A DNA stretch of 64,000 nucleotides from contig CP133595.1 of the NCBI GenBank assembly GCA_031200235.1, positions 1,822,877 through 1,886,876 on the forward strand. Direction: 5' to 3'. This document shows positions 17,262-30,442 of this stretch, one piece after another (within the stretch, counting starts at the first letter, position 1; each line of letters begins with the position of its first letter). The position numbers and the translations under genes are program-made. The DNA comes from Cuniculiplasma divulgatum. GTDB lineage: Archaea; Thermoplasmatota; Thermoplasmata; Thermoplasmatales; Thermoplasmataceae. The notes beneath the pieces are model-generated. The model was not told the DNA's origin. It did no database searches and worked only from the letters and a program-made list of their open reading frames with translations.

Positions 17262-17504
17262 TGACATATTGATGTGCCGCCCAATGTTTGCCATCCTAGG
17301 TTCATTATCATAGAGAGTGACATATAGCAATCAACATCTATAAGTGCTCTCTTCAAGAATCAATCAAGAATTCATCATAAAGTTACTTGTGTAGAAATAG
17401 TGGGATCATAAATTAGGCATAGACATAATAAAAATGCAGAAAATTAAAAAAGTAGCGGCTGATGAAAACAAAGCGGTATAATCCGAACCATTCCGGAAAT
17501 ATTG

Positions 17505-17514
17505 TTATAAATTA
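17505..17514 (+). promoter_or_regulatory. TATA-like element for the acid-sugar dehydratase gene
   Basis: TTATAAATTA is centred about 30 nt before the ATG at 17,540. A short palindrome TTCCGGAA lies just upstream, near 17,491, and could be an operator. Confidence 0.4.
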
Positions 17515-17539
17515 ATTCATATCTTTTTATCTGATTGTT

Positions 17540-18655
17540 ATGAAGATTTCAAAATTTGAGATTATAGCACGAGACAAGGTGAATCAGCCTCTCTACCCCT
17601 ATGTAAAGCCAACAGACTACTACCTTGACATCCTCGGAGAGAAATCCCCGACAGAAGCTGCGATGATTGACAATGTAGCAATCCTGAAAATGACTGCAGA
17701 TGACGGTTCCAGTTCCTATTTCAACACCTCTTCCCTTGTGGCGGATTACGCCCTTACATTATTCAGGAAGATCGAAAACTGGGATGCCTCAGAGATCGGC
17801 ATGGCATGGGACTTTCTCTACCGTTATTCGCTTCCCCTGGGGAGGGCCGGAGTCTCCATGCATGCAATCAGCGTGATCAACCTCATGATGTATGACCTCT
17901 ACGCAAGGCACCTGAAAGTCCCGGTATATGATCTCCTCGGAGGAAAGACAAGGGGTAAGATCAAAGCATACGCCAGCCACCTTCACCCTCTCCCCCTGAA
18001 AGAACTGCAGAAGGAAGCCCAGGAGTATGTCGAAGAGGGATACAGGGTTATGAAGATGCGTTTCAGCTCAGGGCCGGCAGATCCAAACGCAATGGAGAAG
18101 AACGAGGAACTGGTCAAAGCCGTAAGGGATCAGGTTGGCTACAATATTGAACTTGCTGCGGATGCCTGGATGTCGTGGACCTATAACTTCGCGGTGAGAA
18201 TGCTCAAGAAGCTGGAAAAGTATGATCTTGCATGGGTTGAGGAGCCGCTCCATCCTGATGATTTCGAAGGGTTCAAAACACTGGTCAGGAATGTGGAAAC
18301 GCCCATATCTGCGGGGGAACACCATTACCATGTTCATGACATGAAGAAGCTTCTTGATGCGGGCATACGGATACTCCAGCCTGACACCATGTGGACAGGC
18401 GGGCTCACCAGCATGAAGAAGATAGCGGGGCTTGCAGAATCCTATGGTGCCCAGGTCATTCCCCATGCAGGAAATGTATATAACCTGCATTTCATCATAT
18501 CCGAACCGCAGGCCATTACCCCTCTGGCAGAGTACCTCACCAGGTACAGGGAATGGATGGAACAGCACATGACCGGAATTCCGCACCCGAAGAACGGTTA
18601 CATCACACTGCCTGAAAGGCCCGGCTTTGGAGTTGAATATGACGGTGGAAAATAA
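17540..18655 (+). CDS. Enolase-superfamily acid-sugar dehydratase, L-rhamnonate dehydratase type
   Basis: The 371-residue protein belongs to the mandelate racemase subgroup. It would dehydrate L-rhamnonate (or L-fuconate/L-lyxonate) to the 2-keto-3-deoxy acid. Metal ligands are visible as D208 (A-A-D-A-W-M-S-W), E234 (W-V-E-E-P-L) and E260 (S-A-G-E-H-H). The general base dyad is D282 (L-Q-P-D) with H309 (V-I-P-H-A-G-N-V-Y). The W-M-S, S-G/A-G-E-H-H and P-G-F-G-V-E blocks resemble rhamnonate dehydratase. Its 3' end overlaps the next gene by 17 nt. Together with the mutarotase, SDR, MDR and FAH genes up to 26.9 kb it forms a complete oxidative route; rhamnose is the best fit because a RhaM gene is present. 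Confidence 0.85.
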   Translation: MKISKFEIIARDKVNQPLYPYVKPTDYYLDILGEKSPTEAAMIDNVAILKMTADDGSSSYFNTSSLVADYALTLFRKIENWDASEIGMAWDFLYRYSLPLGRAGVSMHAISVINLMMYDLYARHLKVPVYDLLGGKTRGKIKAYASHLHPLPLKELQKEAQEYVEEGYRVMKMRFSSGPADPNAMEKNEELVKAVRDQVGYNIELAADAWMSWTYNFAVRMLKKLEKYDLAWVEEPLHPDDFEGFKTLVRNVETPISAGEHHYHVHDMKKLLDAGIRILQPDTMWTGGLTSMKKIAGLAESYGAQVIPHAGNVYNLHFIISEPQAITPLAEYLTRYREWMEQHMTGIPHPKNGYITLPERPGFGVEYDGGK

Positions 18656-19406
18656 TACATTCAGCATCAATGTAATCAAGACCGGCGAATCCGAAGTGCC
18701 TGCTCCTGAGGTATTCTGGATGGAGGGCTGGAATCAGTGGGAGAAGCTTTCATTTCACGCACTCCTGCTGCGGAACAAAAACATGAATTTTCTCATCAAC
18801 ACAGGGCTACCATCCGATCTCAGCGAGAGAAACAGGGCCATGGTGGATTTTGGAGGAGAACGCTGCATTTTCAGGTCCATTGACATCACCAGGGAACTGA
18901 AACGCCTTGGCGTGGAACCTTCTGATGTTAATGGCATTTCCTTCACGCCCCTGCAGGATTACACAACAGGAGGGATTCCTCTTTTCCAGAATGCGAAAAT
19001 CTACCTGGACAGGAGAGGATGGACGGAGGATATTGTGGCACCGCGTGTCAGGAAACATCAGTCAAGAAACCTTTTCATCCCCGAACAGAATCTGCGCCAT
19101 CTGATGTTTGACGCGTGGAACCGCGTTATATTGTTTGACAGCGTGTACCCTTACAGCATAGCCCCTGGTCTTGCAGTCATGTGGGTGGGATGCCACCACC
19201 GTTCATCACTTGCTTTCCAGATTTCAACCAGGTCAGGTAACGTCATTTTCTCGGACTGCTCATTCAAGAGGAGGAACCTGGAGGAGAACATACCCATAGG
19301 CATAGCTGAAAATACCCTGGAATGCCTGGATGCATATTCAAGATTCAGTGGAAAAGGCACATTCCTCTCTGCATACGATCCGGAGATTGACGGGCTGGAG
19401 TTTTAG
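18639..19406 (+). CDS. Metallo-beta-lactamase-fold protein with degenerate metal site, lactonase-like
   Basis: The 255-residue protein follows the layout of AHL-lactonase-type MBL proteins. However, the metal motif H-x-H-x-D-H is replaced: T-P-L-Q-D-Y-T-T-G-G stands where T-H-L-H-x-D-H-x-G-G is expected, removing all four ligands. The third His region survives as V-G-C-H-H-R-S-S and the Asp as F-S-D-C-S-F; the last His region reads S-A-Y-D-P. It is therefore probably not a standard zinc hydrolase. A GGAG at 18,629 precedes the ATG at 18,639; a TTG at 18,627 is the alternative. Overlap with the dehydratase gene implies a linked role, for example binding or opening the sugar lactone. Confidence 0.7.
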   Translation: MTVENNTFSINVIKTGESEVPAPEVFWMEGWNQWEKLSFHALLLRNKNMNFLINTGLPSDLSERNRAMVDFGGERCIFRSIDITRELKRLGVEPSDVNGISFTPLQDYTTGGIPLFQNAKIYLDRRGWTEDIVAPRVRKHQSRNLFIPEQNLRHLMFDAWNRVILFDSVYPYSIAPGLAVMWVGCHHRSSLAFQISTRSGNVIFSDCSFKRRNLEENIPIGIAENTLECLDAYSRFSGKGTFLSAYDPEIDGLEF

Positions 19407-20024
19407 TCGAGTGCAGTGAGAAATATTTTTTCAAACTTTTTTGATTCTAAGTTTTAGATAATGTGCCTATAATTGGTTTAAGATTTTTAATTTTCTGGAG
19501 TTTTACTCTATATGAAGCGTCGTCCACGAATGATTATATAATTACGCCAGTGGATCCTCTAGGCAAATAGGATCGGTTTCATTCCTAATCTTAATCCATA
19601 AAGGATTCTAGCTGTTATGAAGGGTTTAAGGATAGTGTACCGAATTTTGTGTAATTCCTAGACCTATTACTAGGATCATGAGAGAAGTTTCATGAAAAAT
19701 GAAAGGATGCCTCCAGGAACCACCCAAGGGTCGATAAACCATAGAAAACCCAAATAAAAGGTCATCTGATAGTGTTACACCGACTATAATGGCGTTCATT
19801 TGATGTTTCTATAATACCAATAATATGCATTTCATGAACGGCCGTAATATTTCTTCGTTCTTTCTCATCGGAGGAGAGCGCCGTGAAGATGATCTATCTC
19901 AGGGTGGCTGAGATAAATGAGAAATGCTCTCTCAGATCTCTGGGGGGATTCTATAAATGCCAGGATGAGATCAGGAAAAGGTTCCAGAAGAGGTATCCTT
20001 TATAAATACACAACTTTCGGGACG
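19407..20024. other. 618-nt gap with a transposase-like remnant
   Basis: No intact gene is seen. At about 19,880-20,002 one plus-strand frame reads V-K-M-I-Y-L-R-V-A-E-I-N-E-K-C-S and ends R-F-Q-K-R-Y-P-L with a stop. This looks like the last 40 residues of an integrase/transposase C-terminus. The rest is AT-rich and carries stops in all frames. Confidence 0.4.
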
Positions 20025-20972
20025 CTATAAAATGCCGTTTAAGAAATCAATTAGTTTATTAAAAGAAACGGAAAAATCGCTGCGGGAATAGCAAACGCGG
20101 ATGTAAGGGCCAGAAATCCCAAAAAATTTGGCAGGAACGACAGATATTGACTTTTTAAAAAGAAGCTCGGAAAGAGTAAAAGAATCAATTTCAGAATATT
20201 TTGAGTAGTCTATGAACGAGACCGTTCCTAATCTAGGTTTTCTATCTAAATAGAACCTCAAATCACTTTTGTTATTAATAAGAAAGCTATAATTTTGAGC
20301 CTGAATCTCTCTAACTTCTTGAACAATTGAATCCAAATCGCTCATTATTTGGTATGCAACAGAAATATTATACCTGGATACATACTCTGTAAATATTCCT
20401 CTTAGGTTCTCTATAGCCTCAGCATCCTCTCTACTTGGTGCGATAATGTATCCAACTCGCAAGTCATCCCCACCAAAAAATTTAGTAAATGTGTTAATAC
20501 GATAAGTGTTGGCAGGGTAATGTAAAGCATCTAAATTGGAGGAAAACATAAGAAAAGTTTCGTCGATCAAATAAGCTGAATAACCCTCAGGTATCTGTAA
20601 TAGGTCACCAGTAGGATTATTGGGGTTACTAGTAATGAATAAGCCAGAGTCTTTGGAGGTATAACCTAGATGAGGAGGCAATTTATAAAGTGGTTCGTAA
20701 TCAGGAAGATTTGTCAGGCTGCTTCTGATTCCAGTCTCATATATGTGATAGATAGAAGTAAAAAATGCTTCAGTAGCCCCGTGGGTTATTACCACCTGAG
20801 ATTTGTCACAATTGTTTATACTTGCTATAGATTCCTTCAGATCTCCTTCTGAAACTAATGATTTAACATCGAAGTATTTTTCAAGAGATATCCTTCCATA
20901 CATTCCACTCTGAGAGAGATCGTATTTTCCAGTATGGGAGTGAATCCACGAACCAGTTTCAAACCCTATCAT
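20025..20972 (-). CDS. Compact class I/II (fold-type I) PLP aminotransferase
   Basis: The 315-residue protein is a short member of the AspC/HisC-like superfamily. It has T-H-G-A-T-E-A-F near 63-70, S-N-P-N-N-P-T-G near 115-122, and L-I-D-E-T-F with the PLP-pairing Asp near 137. The Schiff-base Lys is near 164 in N-T-F-T-K-F-F-G, then D-D-L-R-V-G-Y with the conserved Arg. It lacks roughly 50 residues compared with typical family members, mostly at the N-terminus, yet all core motifs are present. It overlaps the upstream permease gene by 4 nt, so it likely acts on an imported amino acid or amine. The region is markedly AT-rich compared with its flanks. Confidence 0.78.
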   Translation of the reverse strand: MIGFETGSWIHSHTGKYDLSQSGMYGRISLEKYFDVKSLVSEGDLKESIASINNCDKSQVVITHGATEAFFTSIYHIYETGIRSSLTNLPDYEPLYKLPPHLGYTSKDSGLFITSNPNNPTGDLLQIPEGYSAYLIDETFLMFSSNLDALHYPANTYRINTFTKFFGGDDLRVGYIIAPSREDAEAIENLRGIFTEYVSRYNISVAYQIMSDLDSIVQEVREIQAQNYSFLINNKSDLRFYLDRKPRLGTVSFIDYSKYSEIDSFTLSELLFKKSISVVPAKFFGISGPYIRVCYSRSDFSVSFNKLIDFLNGIL

Positions 20973-22399
20973 TTTACGTTACCTTCTTCTAGTTGGTCCA
21001 GCTTAAATTCTTTTATGTTGTAAAGTTTCACATTTCTTCTGATCAAAATGTAGCCAAGTACTAGCCAGACTACTACCGCTATAGGCATGATCAAGAGGGG
21101 CATTGCAATACCTAAAAGCGAATAATAAAGAATAATCAAAAACACAACAATTGCTATAACAGGTAGAATTATATAATAATATTTGAACTGGTCAATCTTC
21201 TTGAAATAAATGGGCATAGAAATTGATGTCGTGATGTGATAGAATATGAAGACGAAAGTCCCAAAGAGACCAAGCACAGCTACGCCATAAAATACACCTT
21301 CCACCGCACCATATAAAAATACGAACATCTGCGTTAGTCCAAGTGAAAGAACTAGCCCCACTAGTGCAATCAGTAAAGAGCTATTACCTGGGACATCTCC
21401 CTTATTTAGTTTGGAAAACCATTGAGGAATTATACGATCTCTCCCGAGGGAATAATATACCCTTGAGGCCGCACCCATTAGGCCGATGGCAGTGCCATAA
21501 TCTGCAATTAAAAGCAAGACTAAAGCATATATTGCCATAGTTTTTCCTAAATATTTTCCTATAACCGTGTAGCCTGGTGCAGTAAGTGAAACTAATGATG
21601 ATAAATTTGAGAAACCCCAACCCGCAACTATTGCATATGTTCCAAGAATGAAGACAACAGCGGCAGTTATCACAGTAAGCAGCAAAGCCTTTGCAACATT
21701 TCTTTTAGGTATTCTAGACTCCTCTGATAAGGTTAGAATCACACCGTACCCTGAATAACTTCCCAATGCACCGACGATAAATCCTACAAAGAAAGCAGGT
21801 AGTGCGCTTATTTTGGGGAACGATAAAGGTTGAAAGGAATTATGCCCGCCCATTAGAACGATTATGGAAATAGCAATAATAATAGCTGAACCCACCTCTA
21901 TGGCTCCAATGATAGCACCAACGTAAGTCATCAGCTTTACCTTCAGCCGAACTATGAAATAGGCAACTAAAATTACTGAAATATCTATGATATAGATAAG
22001 ATATAGTGGCAATGTGACGTTATAAAAATATGATACAAAAACAGAAGTCAAATAACCTGTTGTCGCGGCCAGTGCGCCCGTACTAACAGTATATCCACCT
22101 GCATAAGCCCATCCTGTAAGATACCCTATCTGCTTTCCTGCTCCAGCAGCCGCATATGCAGCCCACCCACCTGCATTTGAGATTCGCTTACTAAATGGTA
22201 TAGCTATTCCTATAGATACTAGTGTAACTAAGAATCCAACTAAAAAAGCTTCCACAGCAAAGGGCGTGAATGAAATTACACCTATTGCTGCAAATCCAAA
22301 TACTCCGAATGGCAAAATTGTTGCCAATGAATAAAATGAAGCTCTAAGCACAGAAACCTGGTTAGGCTCCAACTTACTTTTGTTGACATAATGCTCCAT
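20969..22399 (-). CDS. APC-family amino acid/polyamine permease
   Basis: The 476-residue protein is almost entirely hydrophobic, with about 12 predicted membrane spans. It has the APC-type first half: G-V-F-G-F-A-A-I-G-V, a glycine-rich A-G-G-W-A-A-Y-A-A-A-G-A-G and a later G-A-L-G-S-Y-S-G-Y-G. It would import an amino acid or amine by cation symport. Its 3' end overlaps the aminotransferase gene by 4 nt (ATGA), indicating an operon and a shared substrate. The gene is AT-rich like its partner, in contrast to the flanking rhamnose genes, so the pair may be an insertion into that cluster. Confidence 0.85.
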   Translation of the reverse strand: MEHYVNKSKLEPNQVSVLRASFYSLATILPFGVFGFAAIGVISFTPFAVEAFLVGFLVTLVSIGIAIPFSKRISNAGGWAAYAAAGAGKQIGYLTGWAYAGGYTVSTGALAATTGYLTSVFVSYFYNVTLPLYLIYIIDISVILVAYFIVRLKVKLMTYVGAIIGAIEVGSAIIIAISIIVLMGGHNSFQPLSFPKISALPAFFVGFIVGALGSYSGYGVILTLSEESRIPKRNVAKALLLTVITAAVVFILGTYAIVAGWGFSNLSSLVSLTAPGYTVIGKYLGKTMAIYALVLLLIADYGTAIGLMGAASRVYYSLGRDRIIPQWFSKLNKGDVPGNSSLLIALVGLVLSLGLTQMFVFLYGAVEGVFYGVAVLGLFGTFVFIFYHITTSISMPIYFKKIDQFKYYYIILPVIAIVVFLIILYYSLLGIAMPLLIMPIAVVVWLVLGYILIRRNVKLYNIKEFKLDQLEEGNVK

Positions 22400-22854
22400 A
22401 AGTCACCTCAATGAATTACTAATTGAAAAAATATAAATCTAATTCCAGACCTGTACGTTATTTAATCACTAAAATTATAATTATTTGTTTGATTATACCG
22501 GAAAATACCTCAATGAGAAAATTTTGAGCAATAATATACTTTTCCGAGCATTTTGCGGTCGATAATATTATTAAGCCTCTTAGAAATTGCCAACATAGTA
22601 CCGTCTGATTGGAGGACCGTATCTGCATTTATAATTCAAGGATATTAGAACATAGATGGGGTACATTAGCGCACCTGTTCGGAAGCATTTTGATATATTA
22701 ATAGGTCATAAATTTGTTAATATGTTGATAACTTACACAATGGATGTTTATACTTTAGAAAGTGTAATTCTGGCACGAAGACATTTCTCCGGAGCATCGA
22801 AGTGGTGAGCGGGTAACCATCACCAATTTTTATTTTACCAGGAGATTGTTTATC
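22400..22854. other. 455-nt intergenic region between divergent genes
   Basis: It holds the promoters of the permease (minus) and the SDR gene (plus). A 22-codon open frame at 22,741-22,809 ends A-S-K-W and resembles the tail of the decayed frame near 12,715. No other gene is seen; the sequence is AT-rich. Confidence 0.4.
22825..22836 (+). promoter_or_regulatory. TATA box for the SDR sugar dehydrogenase
   Basis: AATTTTTATTTT is centred about 25 nt upstream of the ATG at 22,855 and favours that start over the TTG at 22,846. Confidence 0.55.
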
Positions 22855-23622
22855 ATGGCAGATCGATTCAGTGGAAAAAAAGCACTTGTCACAGGAGGAT
22901 CAAGGGGAATAGGAAGGGCAATAGCTCTTGGCCTGGCACGTGAGGGTGCAGATGTATGCATTACCTACTCATCCCATGACAGCGAAGCTGACACATTCGT
23001 AAAGGAAGCTGAAAAACTTGGAAGAAAGGCCTACAAATTCAAAATTGATCAGAGCAGGGTTGAGAATGTTCCATCACTGATGAATTATGTTGAAAAGCAG
23101 ATGGGGCACGTGGATGTTCTGGTCAACAATGCCGGCATCTGCCCATTCAGGGATTTTTTCGATATCGACATGGGGCTCTTCGAAACGGTGATGAAGGTGA
23201 ACGTCGAAAGCCATTATTTCATCACCCAGGCCGCTGCCAGGAACATGATTGCATCAGGCATCAGGGGGCGTATTCTTTTCATCAGTTCCATAAGCGCAAT
23301 TGTTGGAGGGGAATTCCAGACGCATTACACCATAACAAAGTCAGGACTGAACGGGCTTGTCCATTCACTGGCAATAGTTTTTGGAAAGCATGGAATACTT
23401 GTGAACAGCCTTGAGCCCGGAACCATACTGACTGACATCAATGCAGAGGATCTTTCCAACATGGAGAAGAGAAAGTACATGGAAACCAGGACTGCGGTGA
23501 AGCGCCTTGGCCTTCCCGAGGATATGGTGGAGCCTGCCCTTTTCCTGCTGTCGGATCAGAATACCTACGTCACTGGTACTGAGTTACTTGCAGACGGAGG
23601 AATGCTGGTTAATCTCCAGTGA
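22855..23622 (+). CDS. SDR-family sugar 1-dehydrogenase, probably L-rhamnose dehydrogenase
   Basis: The 255-residue classical SDR has the cofactor motif T-G-G-S-R-G-I-G at 13-20, N-N-A-G near 91-94, catalytic S145 and Y158-x3-K162 (Y-T-I-T-K). It ends D-G-G-M-L-V-N. In this cluster it would oxidise L-rhamnose at C1 to the lactone; an L-rhamnose dehydrogenase of this family is known from Thermoplasma. Sequence alone cannot separate it from FabG-like reductases, so the substrate rests on context (RhaM, rhamnonate dehydratase-like, MDR, FAH genes). The TATA box supports ATG 22,855. The gene converges with rhaM, with a hairpin between. Confidence 0.82.
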   Translation: MADRFSGKKALVTGGSRGIGRAIALGLAREGADVCITYSSHDSEADTFVKEAEKLGRKAYKFKIDQSRVENVPSLMNYVEKQMGHVDVLVNNAGICPFRDFFDIDMGLFETVMKVNVESHYFITQAAARNMIASGIRGRILFISSISAIVGGEFQTHYTITKSGLNGLVHSLAIVFGKHGILVNSLEPGTILTDINAEDLSNMEKRKYMETRTAVKRLGLPEDMVEPALFLLSDQNTYVTGTELLADGGMLVNLQ

Positions 23623-23647
23623 TTTGCGTTCGGCATAATTTTCAGGA

Positions 23648-23669
23648 GATGGGTACTGTATAACCCATC
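23648..23669. terminator. Perfect 7-bp hairpin between convergent SDR and rhaM genes
   Basis: GATGGGT and ACCCATC form a perfect 7-bp stem around an 8-nt loop. It sits 26 nt after the SDR stop and about 85 nt beyond the rhaM stop. Position suggests a transcript end or stability element, but no long T-run follows, so termination is only a guess. Confidence 0.35.
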
Positions 23670-23754
23670 CCAGTTCTGTTTCCAGGTTTTCAGTAATAAC
23701 ATGAAACAGTACACGTGTATTGCTTTGACATGTTCTCCCCTGAATAAGTCCGGT

Positions 23755-24060
23755 TCAGTCCAGCCGGAATACTTCCCTCATGCCATCCGAAGTTCTCTCT
23801 GAGGGTGATGTTATGATAACATCATTCATGTATTCCTGCCACCTTGCATTGACATCGCTGCTGTTCACTGTTGCAAGTGTCCTGCCCAGGTCCTCGCATT
23901 CCCAGTAGCCGAACACATGTGTGCCGTCCCTGAAGATTGAATAATTTGATATGCCCGCTTCCTTGAGCATTTTTTTCATGTCGCCCCATACATCTGCGTG
24001 CCTCCTGTCGTATTCATCCTCCATGCCATGCCGTATTGTGAGATGAAAAGCGTACCTCAT
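23755..24060 (-). CDS. rhaM: L-rhamnose mutarotase
   Basis: The 101-residue protein matches the RhaM family (usual length about 104): it begins M-R-Y-A-F-H-L, has H-x-x-V-W form in R-H-A-D-V-W, then I-S-N-Y-S-I-F-R-D, V-F-G-Y-W-E-C-E-D and the ending M-R-E-V-F-R-L-D. It interconverts alpha- and beta-L-rhamnose and so speeds entry to the dehydrogenase. The open frame extends 40 codons upstream, but a TATA box at 24,081-24,090 lies 26 nt before the ATG at 24,060 and fixes the start. This gene is the strongest pointer to rhamnose as the substrate of the whole cluster. Confidence 0.88.
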   Translation of the reverse strand: MRYAFHLTIRHGMEDEYDRRHADVWGDMKKMLKEAGISNYSIFRDGTHVFGYWECEDLGRTLATVNSSDVNARWQEYMNDVIITSPSERTSDGMREVFRLD

Positions 24061-24080
24061 GCTGAAGAATTGTGCCACAC

Positions 24081-24090
24081 CCATATAACA
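24081..24090 (-). promoter_or_regulatory. TATA box for rhaM
   Basis: Read on the minus strand, TGTTATATGG is centred 26 nt upstream of the ATG at 24,060. Confidence 0.55.
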
Positions 24091-24160
24091 GTTGCCCAGT
24101 ACAGTTACGGCATTAATCAGTGCCAGAACTCTGATACAGCTAAAAAAGAGAAACTGATTG

Positions 24161-24871
24161 TTATTTTGAGAAGAGACCATGAAGAAACATATGTTCGGAC
24201 TCCCACTTTGTTATGACCTTGCTCTCTGCCTTTCTCAGTGCCTCAGCAAGCGCAGATTTTGAAAGCCCCACCTTTGCAGCAACATCCTCAAGATGCACCT
24301 GCCTTGGCACTTCATAGTACCCTGAAGAATGGGCCCAGTGGAGTGCATGCCTTTCCTGCGGGGTCAGGTCAAGGTTCGTGCCTACGAAATCATCTATATT
24401 GACATCCCTTACCTTGAAATAGGACAGCTCTCCCAGATTTTCAAGCTCCCTTCTGGCATCATGAACATCGTCCTGCGGGAGGATGGCAACAATCTCCTCA
24501 CCTGTTCCGTCAATGAAATCGCTCTGGAACAGTGATGAATGCTCATACATAACTGTGGACACCATGTCCTCATACTTCTCCCTGAATATGATCCTGTAAA
24601 GTTTTCTCCTGCTGTCAACAGCGTCCAGCTGCATTACCTCCCTTATGGAACCGGAATGCCTGAAACCGTTGTAGAAGAGCCTGAATCCCTTGAGGAACTC
24701 AGACTGGACCTCTATTCCTCCGAAGACATAATTCCTGTCCTTGAACGGCTTTATGATTATTGTGTGTGCAATGCTTCCCGTTTCAGCCAGTGAGTTGGAC
24801 CAGCACCCTTCATGCCTGATCTTGAACTGCACCAGGATGTACCGGCTGTCGTTTCCGGCGGAAATCTTCAT
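24161..24871 (-). CDS. Bacterio-opsin-activator type (HTH-10) transcription regulator
   Basis: The 236-residue protein ends in an HTH-10 domain of the Bat family: L-T-P-Q-E-R-H-A-L-H-W-A near residues 165-180, then V-H-L-E-D-V-A-A-K-V-G-L-S-K-S-A-L-A-E-A-L-R-K-A-E. The first 150 residues form a sensor-like region with no motif I can name. In haloarchaea such proteins activate catabolic and other operons. Located between rhaM and the divergent MDR dehydrogenase gene, it is the likely regulator of the rhamnose genes. A TATA-like TTTTAATT lies about 23 nt before its ATG. Ligand and targets are inferred. Confidence 0.8.
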   Translation of the reverse strand: MKISAGNDSRYILVQFKIRHEGCWSNSLAETGSIAHTIIIKPFKDRNYVFGGIEVQSEFLKGFRLFYNGFRHSGSIREVMQLDAVDSRRKLYRIIFREKYEDMVSTVMYEHSSLFQSDFIDGTGEEIVAILPQDDVHDARRELENLGELSYFKVRDVNIDDFVGTNLDLTPQERHALHWAHSSGYYEVPRQVHLEDVAAKVGLSKSALAEALRKAESKVITKWESEHMFLHGLFSK

Positions 24872-24956
24872 GCATTAGCAATGTGCACTGCAATTAAAAT
24901 GTTTCTAAGAAAAAATATTTTCACATGTCGCACAGGTTCAGGATCACGTTTATCTA

Positions 24957-24966
24957 GCAATTTTAA
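24957..24966 (+). promoter_or_regulatory. TATA-like element for the MDR dehydrogenase operon
   Basis: CAATTTTAAA is centred about 22-24 nt before the ATG at 24,984. It heads the four-gene run 24,984-28,974. Confidence 0.45.
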
Positions 24967-24983
24967 ACTCTCATAATGATTAC

Positions 24984-25988
24984 ATGAAAGCCCTGGAATG
25001 GTCAAACATAAAGGAAATGAAGGTCAGGGAAATGCCGGAGCCCGAGCTTAAGCCGGGATGGGTGCTTCTGAGGGTTGCATTCACCGGCATCTGCGGTTCC
25101 GAGCTGTCCGCATACGTGGGCCAGAATGAACTCAGGAAACCACCCAGCGTCATGGGGCATGAGTTTTCCGGTACAGTAATTAAGGCAGACTCGCCTGAGG
25201 ACGAGTATCTGGTGGGAAAAAAAGTAACAGTGAACCCGCTGGTGACATGCGGCAAGTGCAGATTCTGCCGCAGGGGCGACCGCCAGCTGTGCCCTGAGAG
25301 AAAGATAATTGGCGTGAACTTTCCCGGTTCCTTCGCTGAATTTGTGGCTGTGCCGGCATCATCATGCTACCTGACTGATGATCTGCTTCTCGGTTCACTG
25401 ACCGAACCACTTGCCACGGCATTTCATGCGGTCAGAAAATCACTTGTTGAACCCGGCGACCGGGCTCTGGTCATTGGTGCGGGAACCATAGGGCTCATGG
25501 CAACAGCAGTCCTGAAACTTTTTGGCGCGTCATTCATAGCAGTTTCAGAGACGAACCAGCACAGGCGCGAATGGAGCAGGGACTGGGGAGCAGACATGCT
25601 CATTGATCCTTCCGCCACAAAGGTTGGCAGCAACACAGCTGCTGAAAAGTACGATGTCGTAATAGATGCTGTAGGCCTGAAGGCAACAAGGAAGTTTGCC
25701 ATAAATTCTGCTGAATCAGGAGGCAGGGTCATGTTTGTGGGTCTTCATGAGCCGGATGCCGATGTTCCTGGAAATATGGTTATCAGGAACGAGATCAGCA
25801 TTTCCGGATCATTCTGCTACACCGATGATGATTACAGGAGGTCAGCCGGCCTCATAAATTCAGGGTTTCTCAGCAGCCACAGCAACTGGTATGACATGAG
25901 GGATCTGGAAAGGGGCAACGAATCCTTCATGGAACAGCTGAAGCCGGATGCGCCATTCTCGAAGATTATTCTCTCATCAGAGGCCTGA
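24984..25988 (+). CDS. Zinc-dependent MDR dehydrogenase, probable 2-keto-3-deoxy-L-rhamnonate 4-dehydrogenase
   Basis: The 334-residue protein is a medium-chain dehydrogenase with catalytic-zinc residues C37 (T-G-I-C-G-S-E) and H59-E60 (M-G-H-E). The structural-zinc set is C89, C92, C95 and C103, and E141 follows. The NAD(P) motif is G-A-G-T-I-G at 165-170. In the diketo-hydrolase pathway an enzyme of this class oxidises C4 of 2-keto-3-deoxy-L-rhamnonate to give 2,4-diketo-3-deoxyrhamnonate. The gene is followed after 4 nt by the FAH-family hydrolase that would cleave this product, which supports the role; threonine or sorbitol dehydrogenase would be the generic alternatives. Confidence 0.85.
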   Translation: MKALEWSNIKEMKVREMPEPELKPGWVLLRVAFTGICGSELSAYVGQNELRKPPSVMGHEFSGTVIKADSPEDEYLVGKKVTVNPLVTCGKCRFCRRGDRQLCPERKIIGVNFPGSFAEFVAVPASSCYLTDDLLLGSLTEPLATAFHAVRKSLVEPGDRALVIGAGTIGLMATAVLKLFGASFIAVSETNQHRREWSRDWGADMLIDPSATKVGSNTAAEKYDVVIDAVGLKATRKFAINSAESGGRVMFVGLHEPDADVPGNMVIRNEISISGSFCYTDDDYRRSAGLINSGFLSSHSNWYDMRDLERGNESFMEQLKPDAPFSKIILSSEA

Positions 25989-25992
25989 TACA

Positions 25993-26862
25993 ATGAAGAT
26001 AGGAAACGTCAGGATTGGCGGTAAGGTTGAAGCTGCTGTGCAGATTGAAAACAGAATCATTCCCATGTCTTCTGTTAAAGGGTTTCAGGAAAAGTACGGG
26101 AGTGCAGTTACAGATGACATCATCCGGAATCCGGAAATGTATCAGGCTGCCGCTGCACTGGCAGATCATGTGCCCACATCCGTCCAGATCGATGATGGAA
26201 AGATGTCATTTGCGCCCGTTGTAATGCAGCCACAGAAAATAATCTGCGTGGGGCTTAATTACAGGAGCCATGTAGAGGAGACCAGAGACAGGATTCCCGA
26301 AAGTCCCGTGCTGTTCAGCAAGTATGCAAATTCCCTGGCAGGATCCGGGGATGCCATAGCAATACCGCAGGAAACCAGGCAGCTGGATTACGAAGGTGAA
26401 CTTGGCATAGTCATTGGGAAGAAGGGTAGCAACATAAGGGAATCCGATGCCCTTGATCATGTTTTCGGCTACTTCATAGGCAACGATGTCTCCGCAAGGG
26501 ATCTGCAGTTCAGGACCTCGCAGTGGCTACTTGGGAAATCGGGTGATGGTTTCTATCCATGCGGGCCGTTCATAACAACTGCAGATGAGATCAGGGATCC
26601 CCAGAAGCTGTCCATAAGAACCAGGCTCAATGGGGAAATCAGGCAGGATTCTGACACTTCATACATGATATTCTCCTGCTCTTACCTCATCAGCTACATT
26701 TCAAGATTCATGACACTCTATCCCGGCGACATAATCTCCACAGGAACACCTGAGGGCGTGATACTCGGGATGCCTGAGGACAGGAGGGTATGGATCAGGA
26801 GCGGTGACAGAGTATCAGTAGAGATAGAGGGCCTTGGCAGGCTTGAGAACACATTCTCCTGA
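25993..26862 (+). CDS. Fumarylacetoacetase-family hydrolase, probable 2,4-diketo-3-deoxy-L-rhamnonate hydrolase
   Basis: The 289-residue protein has the FAH fold. I-C-V-G-L-N-Y near 84-90 is followed by the metal ligands E134 and E136 in Y-E-G-E-L-G-I-V-I-G and D165 in G-N-D-V-S-A-R-D. Toward the end it has the family signature G-D-I-I-S-T-G-T-P-E-G-V. The enzyme would hydrolyse the diketo acid to pyruvate and L-lactate. The ATG at 25,993 is 4 nt after the dehydrogenase stop; an upstream in-frame start would overlap that gene. LutA/LutB-like genes that can oxidise L-lactate follow directly, which fits this product. Confidence 0.87.
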   Translation: MKIGNVRIGGKVEAAVQIENRIIPMSSVKGFQEKYGSAVTDDIIRNPEMYQAAAALADHVPTSVQIDDGKMSFAPVVMQPQKIICVGLNYRSHVEETRDRIPESPVLFSKYANSLAGSGDAIAIPQETRQLDYEGELGIVIGKKGSNIRESDALDHVFGYFIGNDVSARDLQFRTSQWLLGKSGDGFYPCGPFITTADEIRDPQKLSIRTRLNGEIRQDSDTSYMIFSCSYLISYISRFMTLYPGDIISTGTPEGVILGMPEDRRVWIRSGDRVSVEIEGLGRLENTFS

Positions 26863-26905
26863 ATGCAAAGGCCAGTGTTTCCAGAATATGGGATAGTGGG
26901 GCAGC

Positions 26906-27835
26906 ATGAGCGTTGAAGGCAGAGAAGTGCAGGATCGGCAGGGAAGAATGATGTTCCAGCAGCTTGAAAGCATACGGGATGTGATGATGGATTCCCTCAT
27001 GAAGAACTATGTCCCTTTTCCCATCGACAGGTCAGTCTGCAGTGCCTGGACCGACTCACTTAAAAAGGGCGGGGAGACAATCATATACACATCATTCATG
27101 TACCAGCTTTCCAGCCTCTTCAGGGCATACGAAAAGCACCTTTCAACCTTTGCAAGGATGGGAGGATCGGCAAGGCTTGCATCACTCGGGAAGTTCTTCA
27201 TAAAGCCTGACAGGGATGATCTCAGGAGAGGCTACAGGATTCTTTCAAACATATCAAACCTGCTCCTGAAGAACGGCATAGATCATGGTTACCTGTACGA
27301 TGATGAGCCATACAGCGGAGGATTACTGCTGGAACTTGGCATGCTTGATCAGTTCTGGGAATACGGATCCAGGGTGCTGAAACTGATGAAAGATCATGGG
27401 GTAAAGCGGGTAATTACTGTGGATCCACACACAACAAATGCAATGAACAGGCTTAAGGAGCATTTCGGAGCAGACATCGAGGTCCATAATTACCTCACCC
27501 TGATCCAGAAATATTCCGGCAGGGGGAAATTTGTCTTCCATGATCCATGCCTGTATACCAGATATGACACCATTGGGGGCAAGATAAGGGAAATCGCCGG
27601 CACCGCAGGAGTTGAGCTCATTGAGGACAGGATGGTCACTAGCCGGGACCTTGGCACGTGCTGCGGAGGACCCCTGGGGCCTGTCAATATGGACCTCAGC
27701 GACAGCATAGCAAAATACAGGGCCGAGAAACTGCTAACCGTATCACAGAACGTCATGGTGGCATGCCCGCTCTGCTACCAGAACCTTAAGCCATACGTGA
27801 GCGGCATGAAGGATCTGGCGGAGGTGATTGAATGA
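26906..27835 (+). CDS. LutA/HdrB-like CCG-domain iron-sulfur protein (lactate oxidation)
   Basis: The 309-residue protein carries the cysteine-rich pattern of LutA/GlpC/HdrB subunits: F-H-D-P-C-L-Y in one block, then T-C-C-G-G-P-L-G-P, and A-C-P-L-C-Y-Q-N in the last. LutA-type proteins act with LutB in oxidation of L-lactate to pyruvate. The N-terminal half is longer and helical, and only one full CCG unit is obvious, so it is not a textbook two-CCG LutA. Its stop overlaps the LutB-like start by 4 nt (ATGA). The link with lactate follows from the FAH hydrolase upstream and is inference. Confidence 0.78.
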   Translation: MSVEGREVQDRQGRMMFQQLESIRDVMMDSLMKNYVPFPIDRSVCSAWTDSLKKGGETIIYTSFMYQLSSLFRAYEKHLSTFARMGGSARLASLGKFFIKPDRDDLRRGYRILSNISNLLLKNGIDHGYLYDDEPYSGGLLLELGMLDQFWEYGSRVLKLMKDHGVKRVITVDPHTTNAMNRLKEHFGADIEVHNYLTLIQKYSGRGKFVFHDPCLYTRYDTIGGKIREIAGTAGVELIEDRMVTSRDLGTCCGGPLGPVNMDLSDSIAKYRAEKLLTVSQNVMVACPLCYQNLKPYVSGMKDLAEVIE

Positions 27836-28974
27836 GCAACTGGAGCATTGCAATTGAACGTGCCCTGGAAAACAACGTGCCTAAGGTTGATTCCATCCTT
27901 GAGAAATATCCATACCTTCACATGATGGCGGATGAAATAAGGGACGCAAAGCTGAGGGTCATTGCCGATCTTGATTCATATGTGAAGCAGACCATGGAAT
28001 CTGTAGAGGCAACCGGAGGCAGGGCATACCTTGCAAGAACAACTGACGAAGCCCGGGACATCCTGAAGAAGATTGTGGGTACGGGCCGAAAAATAGTCAT
28101 GGCAAAGTCAAACGTGGCACATGAGATAGACATTATCAACACTCTTGAGAAAGCCGGTAATTCAGTATCAGAGACGGACCTGGGGGCATATCTGATTCAG
28201 CTTTCTGGAGATGAATCATCACACATCGTCTTCCCGTCACTGCACATGACAAGGGAGGATATAGGCAGGATGCTTCATAAAGAGCTTGGGCTGCAGCTAT
28301 CAGACAGATCAACCACGGAGGAGATTGTTACTGCAGTGAGGCAGCTTTTGCGAAGGAAATACATGGAAGCCGACATTGGCATATCCGGTGCCAATGCAAT
28401 CTCAGCTGACACAGGATCTGTGGTACTTGTAGAAAACGAGGGGAACATACGCATAGATACGGTGCTGCCCCCGGTTCATATCATAATAACTGGAATAGAC
28501 AAGATTGTGCCGACCCTGAATGATGCCATGAAGGAGGCCATGGTCCAGTCGGCATATGCAGGTCTCTATCCCCCAACATATGTTAACATAACATCTGGCC
28601 CAAGCTCAACTGCAGATATAGAGCTGAGGAGAGTGAGCCCGGCAACTGGGCCGAAAGAGGTTCATGTCATCCTTCTTGACAACGGGAGAATGGAAGCGAG
28701 CAGGGACGAATCCATGAAAGAAGCACTTCTATGCATAAAGTGTGGACGGTGTTATTTCGCCTGCCCTGTATACAGAGTACTGGGCAAGGAATGGGGACGG
28801 CAGCCCTATGGTGGACCTACCGGGGCTATGTGGACTGCCATTGTCAACGGGGACTATGCAACGGCAGAGTACTGCACACACTCTGGAGGATGTAGGGAAG
28901 TTTGCCCAATGAAAATCAACATTCCAAGGGTGCTGGAATATATAAAATGGGAAAACATGCGCCCCAGTCAATAA
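27832..28974 (+). CDS. LutB-like LUD-domain protein with 4Fe-4S clusters (lactate oxidation)
   Basis: The 380-residue protein has an N-terminal LUD (DUF162) domain, recognised by R-K-I-V-M-A-K-S-N-V-A-H-E and then G-I-S-G-A-N-A-I-S-A-D-T-G-S-V-V and V-H-I-I-I-T-G-I-D-K. A C-terminal ferredoxin region follows with C-I-K-C-G-R-C-Y-F-A-C-P and C-T-H-S-G-G-C-R-E-V-C-P-M-K-I. This is the LutB layout, though shorter than the roughly 470 residues of Bacillus LutB. It pairs with the LutA-like gene by a 4-nt overlap. Together they would return L-lactate from rhamnose cleavage to pyruvate. No separate LutC gene is seen here. Confidence 0.82.
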   Translation: MSNWSIAIERALENNVPKVDSILEKYPYLHMMADEIRDAKLRVIADLDSYVKQTMESVEATGGRAYLARTTDEARDILKKIVGTGRKIVMAKSNVAHEIDIINTLEKAGNSVSETDLGAYLIQLSGDESSHIVFPSLHMTREDIGRMLHKELGLQLSDRSTTEEIVTAVRQLLRRKYMEADIGISGANAISADTGSVVLVENEGNIRIDTVLPPVHIIITGIDKIVPTLNDAMKEAMVQSAYAGLYPPTYVNITSGPSSTADIELRRVSPATGPKEVHVILLDNGRMEASRDESMKEALLCIKCGRCYFACPVYRVLGKEWGRQPYGGPTGAMWTAIVNGDYATAEYCTHSGGCREVCPMKINIPRVLEYIKWENMRPSQ

Positions 28975-29189
28975 TTACGAATCAAATTGCTGTCTACTGG
29001 TGGCATGCTCACCCTTTGACATACATAGTTTTGCTGCATGGTTCTCGAAATCAAGTGGCATAAATTTGCTATCCCATCCCTTATGCCGGAGCAATTAGGC
29101 ATAACGTTAGTAATCTTATGAAATGTATTGGCAGTGGGTATGAATTAACCGAAGATATAAATTTGTATATCTTGCGTTAATTGCATATA

Positions 29190-29834
29190 ATGAAATTACC
29201 CATAGCAAAGCAACTGAAAAAACAATCTCAAGTTCAGATTGCCTTTCTTCAGGATGAAATCATAGATGTTCTCTATTCGCTGACAGATGATTTGGTTTTC
29301 CATGGAGGAACAGCCATCTGGCGATGCTATGAAGGTAAGAGATTCTGCGAGGATCTTGATTTTTATTCCCACTCTTTTCCAGAAATCTTGACGGAATTTC
29401 AGGAATCAGTCATGTCACATGGTCTGTCAGTTCCAAGGATTAAAGATACCGGAGATGCAATATCCTTAACCATAAAGAACAATAACGCAATGGTAAGGGT
29501 AGAAGTCAACCACGTATCCAGTGTGACAGGCAATCAGATGGCTTACGAGCTCAGTGATGTGACTCATGTTGAGGTCTTAAGTCTGACAGCTGACCAGTTT
29601 ATCAACGAGAAAATGCTGGCTTATACTGATCGCCGTTACATCAGAGACATTTATGATATTTACCACATTTCAACCAATTATCAATTGCTGGCTTCCACCC
29701 GGATAAATCTTATGGAATTCCTATCCGACTTACCACCAACTGTTGATGAACCCGTACTGCGGACACTTGTTTACACTGGGCTGACTCCAACCTTTGAGAA
29801 CATGGTAAGAGACATAAAGAGGCATATTAGATGA
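29190..29834 (+). CDS. AbiEii-type nucleotidyltransferase toxin
   Basis: The protein of about 214 residues has the AbiEii/MenT signature: V-F-H-G-G-T-A-I-W-R-C-Y then R-F-C-E-D-L-D-F-Y, giving the G-G-T/S and D-x-D nucleotidyltransferase residues. It also has a later D-Q-F-I-N-E-K-M and R-Y-I-R-D-I-Y-D. Such proteins are toxins of type IV-like or abortive-infection pairs and add nucleotides to RNA. The ATG at 29,190 lies about 23 nt from a TTGTATATC box; a TTG at 29,181 is the other option. It precedes its AbiEi-like partner with a 4-nt overlap, the reverse of the classic abiEi-abiEii order. Confidence 0.85.
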   Translation: MKLPIAKQLKKQSQVQIAFLQDEIIDVLYSLTDDLVFHGGTAIWRCYEGKRFCEDLDFYSHSFPEILTEFQESVMSHGLSVPRIKDTGDAISLTIKNNNAMVRVEVNHVSSVTGNQMAYELSDVTHVEVLSLTADQFINEKMLAYTDRRYIRDIYDIYHISTNYQLLASTRINLMEFLSDLPPTVDEPVLRTLVYTGLTPTFENMVRDIKRHIR

Positions 29835-30442
29835 AATTCATGAAGGAATTCATTGCACAGTTTTCCTCCAAACCGGTCTTCACATCATACGAAGCCAGAA
29901 ATTTCTTCACGCTCAGACACGGTCCAGAAGGTTACTATAAGCTTGTGCTGAATAATCTTGTTAAATCCGGAAGAATATACAGGATCACCAGGGGGAAATA
30001 TTCCTTCTATGATGATATCCAGTACGTGGGATTTGCTTTCAAGCCATTTTATTACGGATTGCAGGATGCGTTGTCTATCCGGAATCTATGGGAGCAGGAG
30101 ACGAATCCAGTCATAATTACGCCAAGACGGGTCAGAAGTGGCGTTCGGACTTTTCGGGGAAGGAATTATGTCATACGGTGGATCGAGAGAAGCATGTTTT
30201 TCGGTTACTCTCTTGTGGAATATGGCGATTTCTTCATTCCAGTCGCTGACACAGAAAAGATCCTAATCGATATGGTGTATTACCATGAGTTTTTGCTTGA
30301 GGAAGTCAAAAACGAGATTTTGAGGGCTGTTAACAAGAAAAAACTTCAGGAGTATATTCTCATGCTTCCTGAGTACATGAAGAAACGGGTCATTGCATTT
30401 ATTGGTATTGGCGAATATGAAAAAGAAACAGCACCTGAATAA
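29831..30442 (+). CDS. AbiEi-type winged-helix antitoxin
   Basis: The 203-residue protein begins with a winged-helix region (F-T-S-Y-E-A-R-N-F-F, then L-N-N-L-V-K-S-G-R-I-Y-R-I-T-R-G-K-Y), the N-terminal pattern of AbiEi antitoxins. It continues with Y-G-L-Q-D-A-L-S-I-R-N-L-W-E-Q and A-D-T-E-K-I-L-I-D-M-V-Y-Y, also typical of AbiEi. It would neutralise the nucleotidyltransferase encoded by the overlapping gene and repress the operon. It starts at 29,831, overlapping the toxin gene by 4 nt; M4 is an alternative start. Sequence evidence for the pair is good. Confidence 0.83.
   Translation: MKFMKEFIAQFSSKPVFTSYEARNFFTLRHGPEGYYKLVLNNLVKSGRIYRITRGKYSFYDDIQYVGFAFKPFYYGLQDALSIRNLWEQETNPVIITPRRVRSGVRTFRGRNYVIRWIERSMFFGYSLVEYGDFFIPVADTEKILIDMVYYHEFLLEEVKNEILRAVNKKKLQEYILMLPEYMKKRVIAFIGIGEYEKETAPE

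Follow-up and report, generated by a model that had tools for sequence, protein, structure and literature searches.

A conserved archaeal cluster very probably devoted to non-phosphorylative L-rhamnose catabolism, with an AiiA-fold candidate for its lactone-opening step

The stretch of DNA analysed here, called the window throughout, comprises 64,000 nucleotides (positions 1,822,877-1,886,876) of the single-contig 2.006 Mb genome of Cuniculiplasma divulgatum, an acidophilic archaeon of the Thermoplasmatales, and our subject is a group of putative sugar-catabolic genes at window positions 17,540-28,974 (Table 1). A previous reading of the DNA letters by themselves (the sequence-only reading) had named at this locus a RhaM-type mutarotase, a short-chain dehydrogenase/reductase (SDR), an enolase-superfamily enzyme resembling L-rhamnonate dehydratase, a zinc-dependent medium-chain dehydrogenase/reductase (MDR), a fumarylacetoacetate hydrolase (FAH)-family protein, and LutA- and LutB-like proteins, all of which lie where it placed them, with domain matches that agree. 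It left unmentioned an AiiA-like gene that overlaps the dehydratase gene, an HTH_10 regulator gene, and a pair of genes for an APC permease and an aminotransferase-like protein (20025-22399). The open reading frame (ORF) map resolves the region into several transcription units on both strands rather than one operon: the plus strand carries the dehydratase and AiiA-like genes, the SDR gene, and then those for MDR, FAH, LutA and LutB, while the minus strand carries the aminotransferase/permease pair and RhaM with the HTH_10 regulator. The single-operon view proposed earlier thus applies to the tightly spaced MDR-FAH-LutA-LutB segment and does not extend to the whole span. In that segment FAH probably starts at an ATG located 4 nt past the MDR stop, and the four genes therefore read as one operon. 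The reported 4-nt overlap of LutA and LutB is real (27832-27835), and the placement of putative lactate-oxidising genes in one operon with the diketo hydrolase agrees with their tight, same-strand spacing.

Table 1. Genes and gene remnants of the locus, in window coordinates
Feature	Position	Strand	Evidence and remarks
L-rhamnonate dehydratase-like enolase-superfamily enzyme	17540..18655	+	MR_MLE_C, 191 bits
Candidate L-rhamnonolactonase, metallo-beta-lactamase (MBL)/AiiA fold	18627..19406	+	Probable start ATG 18639
Pyridoxal phosphate (PLP) aminotransferase-like protein	20025..20972	-	Aminotran_1_2, 30.7 bits; replacement cassette, probably outside the pathway
APC-family permease	20969..22399	-	AA_permease, 78 bits; replacement cassette
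Remnant (3' end) of major facilitator superfamily (MFS) sugar-transporter gene	22799..22820 (end approximate)	+	Homology to L051
L-rhamnose 1-dehydrogenase (SDR)	22846..23622	+	NF041159, 433 bits
RhaM-type L-rhamnose mutarotase	23755..24180	-	PF05336, 90.8 bits, over cut-off
HTH_10 protein of the bacterioopsin-activator type, probably a local regulator	24161..24871	-	PF04967, 65.7 bits
Zinc MDR dehydrogenase, probable 2-keto-3-deoxy-L-rhamnonate 4-dehydrogenase	24984..25988	+	ADH_N and ADH_zinc_N
FAH-family protein, putative 2,4-diketo-3-deoxy-L-rhamnonate hydrolase	25993..26862	+	ORF opens at 25948; PF01557, 256 bits
LutA-like CCG protein	26906..27835	+	Single complete CCG motif; PF02754, 30 bits
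LutB-like LUD plus 4Fe-4S protein	27832..28974	+	TIGR00273, 335 bits

Among the enzymes of the upper pathway, the SDR falls 17 bits under the cut-off of 450 for model NF041159 ('Rham_dhyd_Thplmales'), and its 71% identical orthologue at locus L067 (loci are numbered L and genomes G) exceeds this cut-off with 483 bits; because that orthologue passes, we count the window SDR as an L-rhamnose 1-dehydrogenase. Its nearest solved structures are the 7b81/7do5 group, representing the A. vinelandii-type enzyme, and the motifs TGxxxGxG and YTITK are present. The best NCBIfam model for the dehydratase is L-rhamnonate dehydratase (204 bits vs a cut-off of 393), and the protein aligns with the L-rhamnonate dehydratase 2i5q, with residues D208, E260, D282 and H309 in place. 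Dehydratase orthologues are 83-95% identical in the closest genomes and 57-66% identical in clusters of other genera of the family.

Downstream, the MDR has its zinc-ligand residues (C37, H59, E60 and C89/C92/C95/C103) and is 45-49% identical to MDRs in rhamnose operons of Sulfobacillus and related Bacillota. An MDR-type 2-keto-3-deoxy-L-rhamnonate (KDR) dehydrogenase of Sulfobacillus has been characterised (Bae et al. 2015, as described in PMC5674754); on the strength of the zinc ligands, the similarity to the Bacillota proteins and this precedent for the activity, we count the window MDR gene as that of a probable KDR 4-dehydrogenase. The FAH protein finds its best NCBIfam model in 2,4-didehydro-3-deoxy-L-rhamnonate hydrolase (NF053535, 214 bits vs a cut-off of 500), aligns over 220 residues with the diketo-deoxyrhamnonate hydrolase 8gsr and contains the motifs DYEGEL and GND. 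A second FAH gene at 1707.6 kb of the genome was set aside as a general family member; most genomes contain FAH matches, whether or not they have the SDR. LutA has cysteines at C215, C252-C253, C287 and C290, that is, one complete CCG motif and not two CCG domains, and LutB combines LUD_dom (158 bits) with Fer4_8 and two cysteine clusters, below the TIGR00273 cut-off of 445. The genome holds a second, unlinked LutAB pair (L204, 7208-9249; LutB 58% identical), and for this reason the cluster-linked pair looks specialised. Both the window LutA-like protein and its L204 paralogue match the CCG family once, in their C-terminal part, whereas the Bacillota LutA at locus L152 matches it in two stretches.

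To assess conservation, window proteins were mapped onto up to 20 kb around SDR and AiiA-like matches in 77 genomes of the family. Strong SDR matches occur in 20 of the 77 genomes, as do strong AiiA-like matches, and they belong to a single recurring cluster kept across nine genera; where the sequence-only reading suggested a search for conserved gene order in other Thermoplasmatales, the cluster was found to recur in about 20 of the 77 genomes. Those closest to the window (L051, L052, L053 and L054) show its gene order as far as their contigs extend. In the genome of L067, which we take to be Thermoplasma acidophilum, the cluster contains genes for a dihydrodipicolinate synthase (DHDPS)-like protein, MFS transporter, SDR, HTH_10, MDR, FAH, AiiA-like protein and dehydratase, whereas Ferroplasma-type clusters comprise SDR, HTH_10, MFS, AiiA-like and dehydratase genes, some with a DHDPS-like gene. 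The cluster includes LutA/LutB in the genus of the window and in a few further ones (L051, L054, L064, L068); in Thermoplasma, LutB is elsewhere. In one Thermoplasma genome (G062, 1,584,804 bp) the locus has decayed: L069:7697-8800 is a 367-aa ORF that fuses the N-terminal part of MDR to the C-terminal part of SDR through an in-frame deletion, and FAH, AiiA-like and dehydratase genes were not found near it.

The gene set is also found in bacteria, namely in acidophilic Bacillota such as Sulfobacillus. A scan of public genomes for the AiiA-like family yielded 79 loci, and in Bacillota, among them bins labelled Sulfobacillus benefaciens and S. acidophilus, the AiiA-like gene is often accompanied by MDR (45-49% identical), SDR (43-47%), FAH, dehydratase and RhaM. 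One Bacillota operon (L152) reads AiiA-like, MDR, FAH, SDR, dehydratase, LutA, LutB, LutC, RhaM. That the same genes stay together in archaea and Bacillota supports a diketo-hydrolase pathway.

Accordingly, the locus very probably serves the non-phosphorylative breakdown of the plant sugar L-rhamnose by a diketo-hydrolase pathway (Route III). The route proposed by the sequence-only reading, from rhamnose via rhamnonolactone, rhamnonate, KDR and its 2,4-diketo form to pyruvate and L-lactate, with oxidation of the lactate, fits best, given that the SDR groups with L-rhamnose dehydrogenases, the gene set is conserved and a Sulfobacillus MDR has been characterised. Judging from sequence, from which catalytic steps, substrate and regulation are all deduced, RhaM would interconvert the anomers, the SDR would oxidise L-rhamnose to the lactone, and the AiiA-fold protein would most likely open it. 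The enolase-family enzyme would then dehydrate L-rhamnonate to KDR, the MDR would oxidise KDR at C4, and the FAH protein would split the resulting diketo acid into pyruvate and L-lactate, the latter of which LutA/LutB, with a further partner, would oxidise to pyruvate; the HTH_10 protein probably regulates the cluster.

Several observations weigh against this assignment. The dehydratase and FAH scores lie far under their equivalog cut-offs, and therefore sequence does not fix their substrate. Rhamnose and fucose routes share the diketo product (PMC11199699), so the lower half of the pathway does not discriminate between sugars. No LutC ORF follows LutB in the window cluster, where the next genes are AbiEii/AbiEi-like, and a clustered sugar transporter has been lost from the window. 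The AiiA-fold protein is without most of the metal ligands used by AiiA-type lactonases. Moreover, Ferroplasma-type clusters have neither MDR nor FAH nearby and may use aldol cleavage, so the cluster is not always of the Route III type. One may argue that the window cluster degrades L-lyxose, L-mannose or L-fucose instead of, or besides, L-rhamnose, as the dehydratase is under the rhamnonate-dehydratase cut-off and a characterised archaeal enzyme oxidises L-lyxose and L-mannose too (PMC12028159). We consider this improbable, since RhaM is present and both the best models and the solved relatives of the SDR are L-rhamnose dehydrogenases. In addition, T. acidophilum has been reported to grow on rhamnose.

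In the window, the part of the cluster that separates the AiiA-like gene from that of the SDR has been replaced, as is directly visible in the alignment. Nucleotide homology to L051 stops at 19,406, the stop of the AiiA-like gene, and restarts at 22,799 in the final MFS codons before the SDR. Relatives, including those of the nearest genomes whose contigs span this part, encode here an aldolase-like protein of the DHDPS family and a sugar transporter of the MFS type, in place of which the window segment 19407-22798 holds the APC permease and aminotransferase-like pair. At the DNA level this pair shares 82% identity with one beside an SDR-RhaM-LutAB cluster of another genus (L064), with protein identities of 90% for the permease and 81% for the aminotransferase-like protein, and the latter gene is absent from the cluster of close relatives. 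No remnant of the aldolase-like gene was found past 19406, where only the 3' end of the MFS gene is left, and the DHDPS-like gene is without an orthologue in the window genome (best match 30% identity, 47 bits). This best match (L075) resembles a general 2-keto-3-deoxygluconate (KDG)-aldolase-type protein and was rejected as a hidden aldolase. Because a cassette has replaced the segment, both of these genes, for the aldolase-like protein and the sugar transporter, are secondarily absent from the window; the earlier statement that the route closes without an aldolase is therefore right for this genome but not for the original state, as close relatives carry the aldolase-like gene. Rhamnose or lactate might be substrates of the APC permease, which could also have nothing to do with the pathway. 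We found no description of this aldolase/MFS segment swap in the literature searched.

The DHDPS-like proteins of the relatives form a distinctive subfamily (L051:5986-6885, L067:5452-6351 and related loci), with GGE(F/Y)Y, QD and KIEG motifs and the Schiff-base lysine kept, which accompanies rhamnose clusters, even those with MDR and FAH. Its retention by close relatives and Thermoplasma, together with the Ferroplasma-type clusters, would fit cleavage of KDR by an aldolase (Route I), with MDR and FAH serving another purpose. For the window this is very improbable, as the gene has been replaced by the cassette with no orthologue elsewhere in the genome, and MDR and FAH are kept together with LutA/LutB.

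The step from lactone to acid is where the sequence-only reading saw no standard lactonase gene. This is literally true, but the non-standard AiiA-fold candidate adjoining the dehydratase was missed. Its product has no Pfam family match and gives weak AiiA-type matches in NCBIfam (28 bits) and PDB searches. Its AlphaFold2 model (pLDDT 88.8) has N-acyl homoserine lactone (AHL) lactonases as top Foldseek matches (TM about 0.73-0.78), which points to a predicted MBL/AiiA fold. The HxHxDH zinc motif occurs in none of 80 aligned homologues; nearly all of them have T-P-x-Q-(D/A/L)-Y there instead, with Pro108 and Tyr112 invariant, and this TPxQxY motif played no part in the homologue scan. Nearly all homologues also have an HHR motif, and, in an alignment with AiiA, H190 and D210 take the positions of AiiA H169 and D191 and are invariant, as are H191, R147, G225, E228 and E232, although conservation within residues 24-32 and 186-194 is partly built in, as the scan used patterns over these residues. 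The place of AiiA's third histidine reads YDP.

Genomic association connects this family to sugar-acid pathway genes. Across the 77 genomes, with shared ancestry ignored, the candidate co-occurs with the SDR (17 of 20 genomes with it vs 3 of 57 without; Fisher p = 2.3e-11), whereas SMP-30 lactonases follow the SDR less closely (p = 1.3e-5) and Amidohydro_2 proteins do not follow it (p = 0.27). In 55 of the 63 loci outside Thermoplasmata, one or more of SDR, dehydratase, MDR, FAH and RhaM lie no more than 3 kb from the AiiA-like gene, and over these 63 loci SDR matches number 15.9 per 100 kb within 3 kb of it vs 1.9 at 6-9 kb; SDR matches near bacterial loci include generic family members, which makes the contrast with distance the fair measure. 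Members of the AiiA-like family are neighbours of sugar dehydrogenases in Thermoplasmata, Acidobacteria, Actinobacteria, Verrucomicrobia, Ignavibacteria and Bacillota. In genome G049 (L063:2739-14908), four AiiA-like matches lie near a second SDR/MDR/dehydratase set, which suggests that the family has expanded there to other sugars.

It could be argued that a standard lactonase encoded elsewhere opens the lactone and that the AiiA-fold protein, without an HxHxDH motif, acts on another lactone or has a regulatory or structural role. An SMP-30 gene (38.7 kb of the genome) and an Amidohydro_2 gene (1977 kb) are indeed present. We regard this as unlikely, since neither adjoins the rhamnose genes, the good-quality genomes G002 and G049 keep the SDR and the AiiA-fold gene but have no SMP-30 match of at least 170 bits, and the Bacillota operon L152, examined in full, contains no lactonase-like gene besides the AiiA-fold one. 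Both standard families, unlinked and with weaker co-occurrence with the SDR or none, were therefore rejected for this step. Thus, the AiiA-fold gene is the strongest available candidate for the lactone-opening step. The broader proposal, that its family is the lactonase of many archaeal and bacterial non-phosphorylative sugar pathways, working through a remodelled active site (TPxQxY, HHR, D210, YDP) in place of the fold's metal motif, we hold to be evenly balanced. In the literature searched, we found no paper linking MBL-fold lactonases with rhamnonolactone, and no description of a role of this family in the lactone step.

As to regulation, the HTH_10 gene is divergent from MDR, and its orthologues are 90-93% identical in the nearest clusters and 28-38% in most other clusters of the family. 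The HTH_10/MDR intergenic region (24872-24983) is strongly conserved in four genomes (block ACAGGTTCAGGATCA). Upstream of the dehydratase, at about 17480-17540, a near-invariant block TAATCCGAACCATTCCGGAAATAT is followed by a TATA-like TTATAAAT, also in L051, L070 and L071; the TAATCCGAACCATTCCGGAAATAT block is a possible regulator site. Comparison of the conserved blocks upstream of the dehydratase and of MDR/HTH_10 gave no convincing common motif for a shared operator. Directly past the rhamnose operon, at 29181-30442, an AbiEii-type nucleotidyltransferase gene (PF08843, 51.8 bits) and an AbiEi-like gene (below cut-off) follow, a probable type IV toxin-antitoxin pair by similarity.

The pathway itself is one further case from the archaea, in which the cluster also covers the oxidation of lactate. 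What matters more is the missing lactone step, for which we describe a coherent family with weak AiiA similarity beside sugar dehydrogenases in several phyla. If it is indeed the lactonase, it would close a gap that many reconstructed sugar pathways share, and would be an MBL-fold enzyme that gave up its usual metal site. In comparison, AiiA-type N-acyl homoserine lactonases share the predicted MBL fold and the conserved His and Asp at AiiA H169/D191, but they have HxHxDH where the candidate family has TPxQxY, and a third histidine where it has YDP.

The chemistry of Route III is published (PMC11199699, PMC6336799), and the lactate-oxidising extension has precedents as well: rhamnose is converted to pyruvate and lactate in Haloferax, where deletion of ludBC impairs growth on rhamnose (PMC8305020), and the lactate dehydrogenase genes lldEFG belong to bacterial rhamnose regulons (PMC3870299). 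An NADP+-specific L-rhamnose dehydrogenase is known from T. acidophilum (Kim et al. 2012, as cited in PMC12028159). The L067 cluster is orthologous to that of the window, with the 71% identical SDR, but still contains the DHDPS-family gene and the MFS transporter, and its LutB is unlinked. The diketo-hydrolase L-rhamnose pathway of Haloferax volcanii (Reinhardt et al. 2019, as cited in PMC8305020) is likewise archaeal and non-phosphorylative, ends in pyruvate and lactate and relies on Lud/Lut proteins for lactate; the window, for its part, has an HTH_10 regulator and an AiiA-fold candidate and is without a clustered sugar transporter. In Sphingomonas, LRA5 and LRA6 share the chemistry of the last two steps, and the window FAH is homologous to the solved 8gsr, but LRA5 is an SDR whereas the window enzyme is an MDR. 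The Sulfobacillus route has the same MDR family and shares the AiiA-fold protein, FAH, SDR and dehydratase; some loci also have LutABC and RhaM. It differs in being a bacterial operon with LutC in which no match to the HTH_10 regulator was found.

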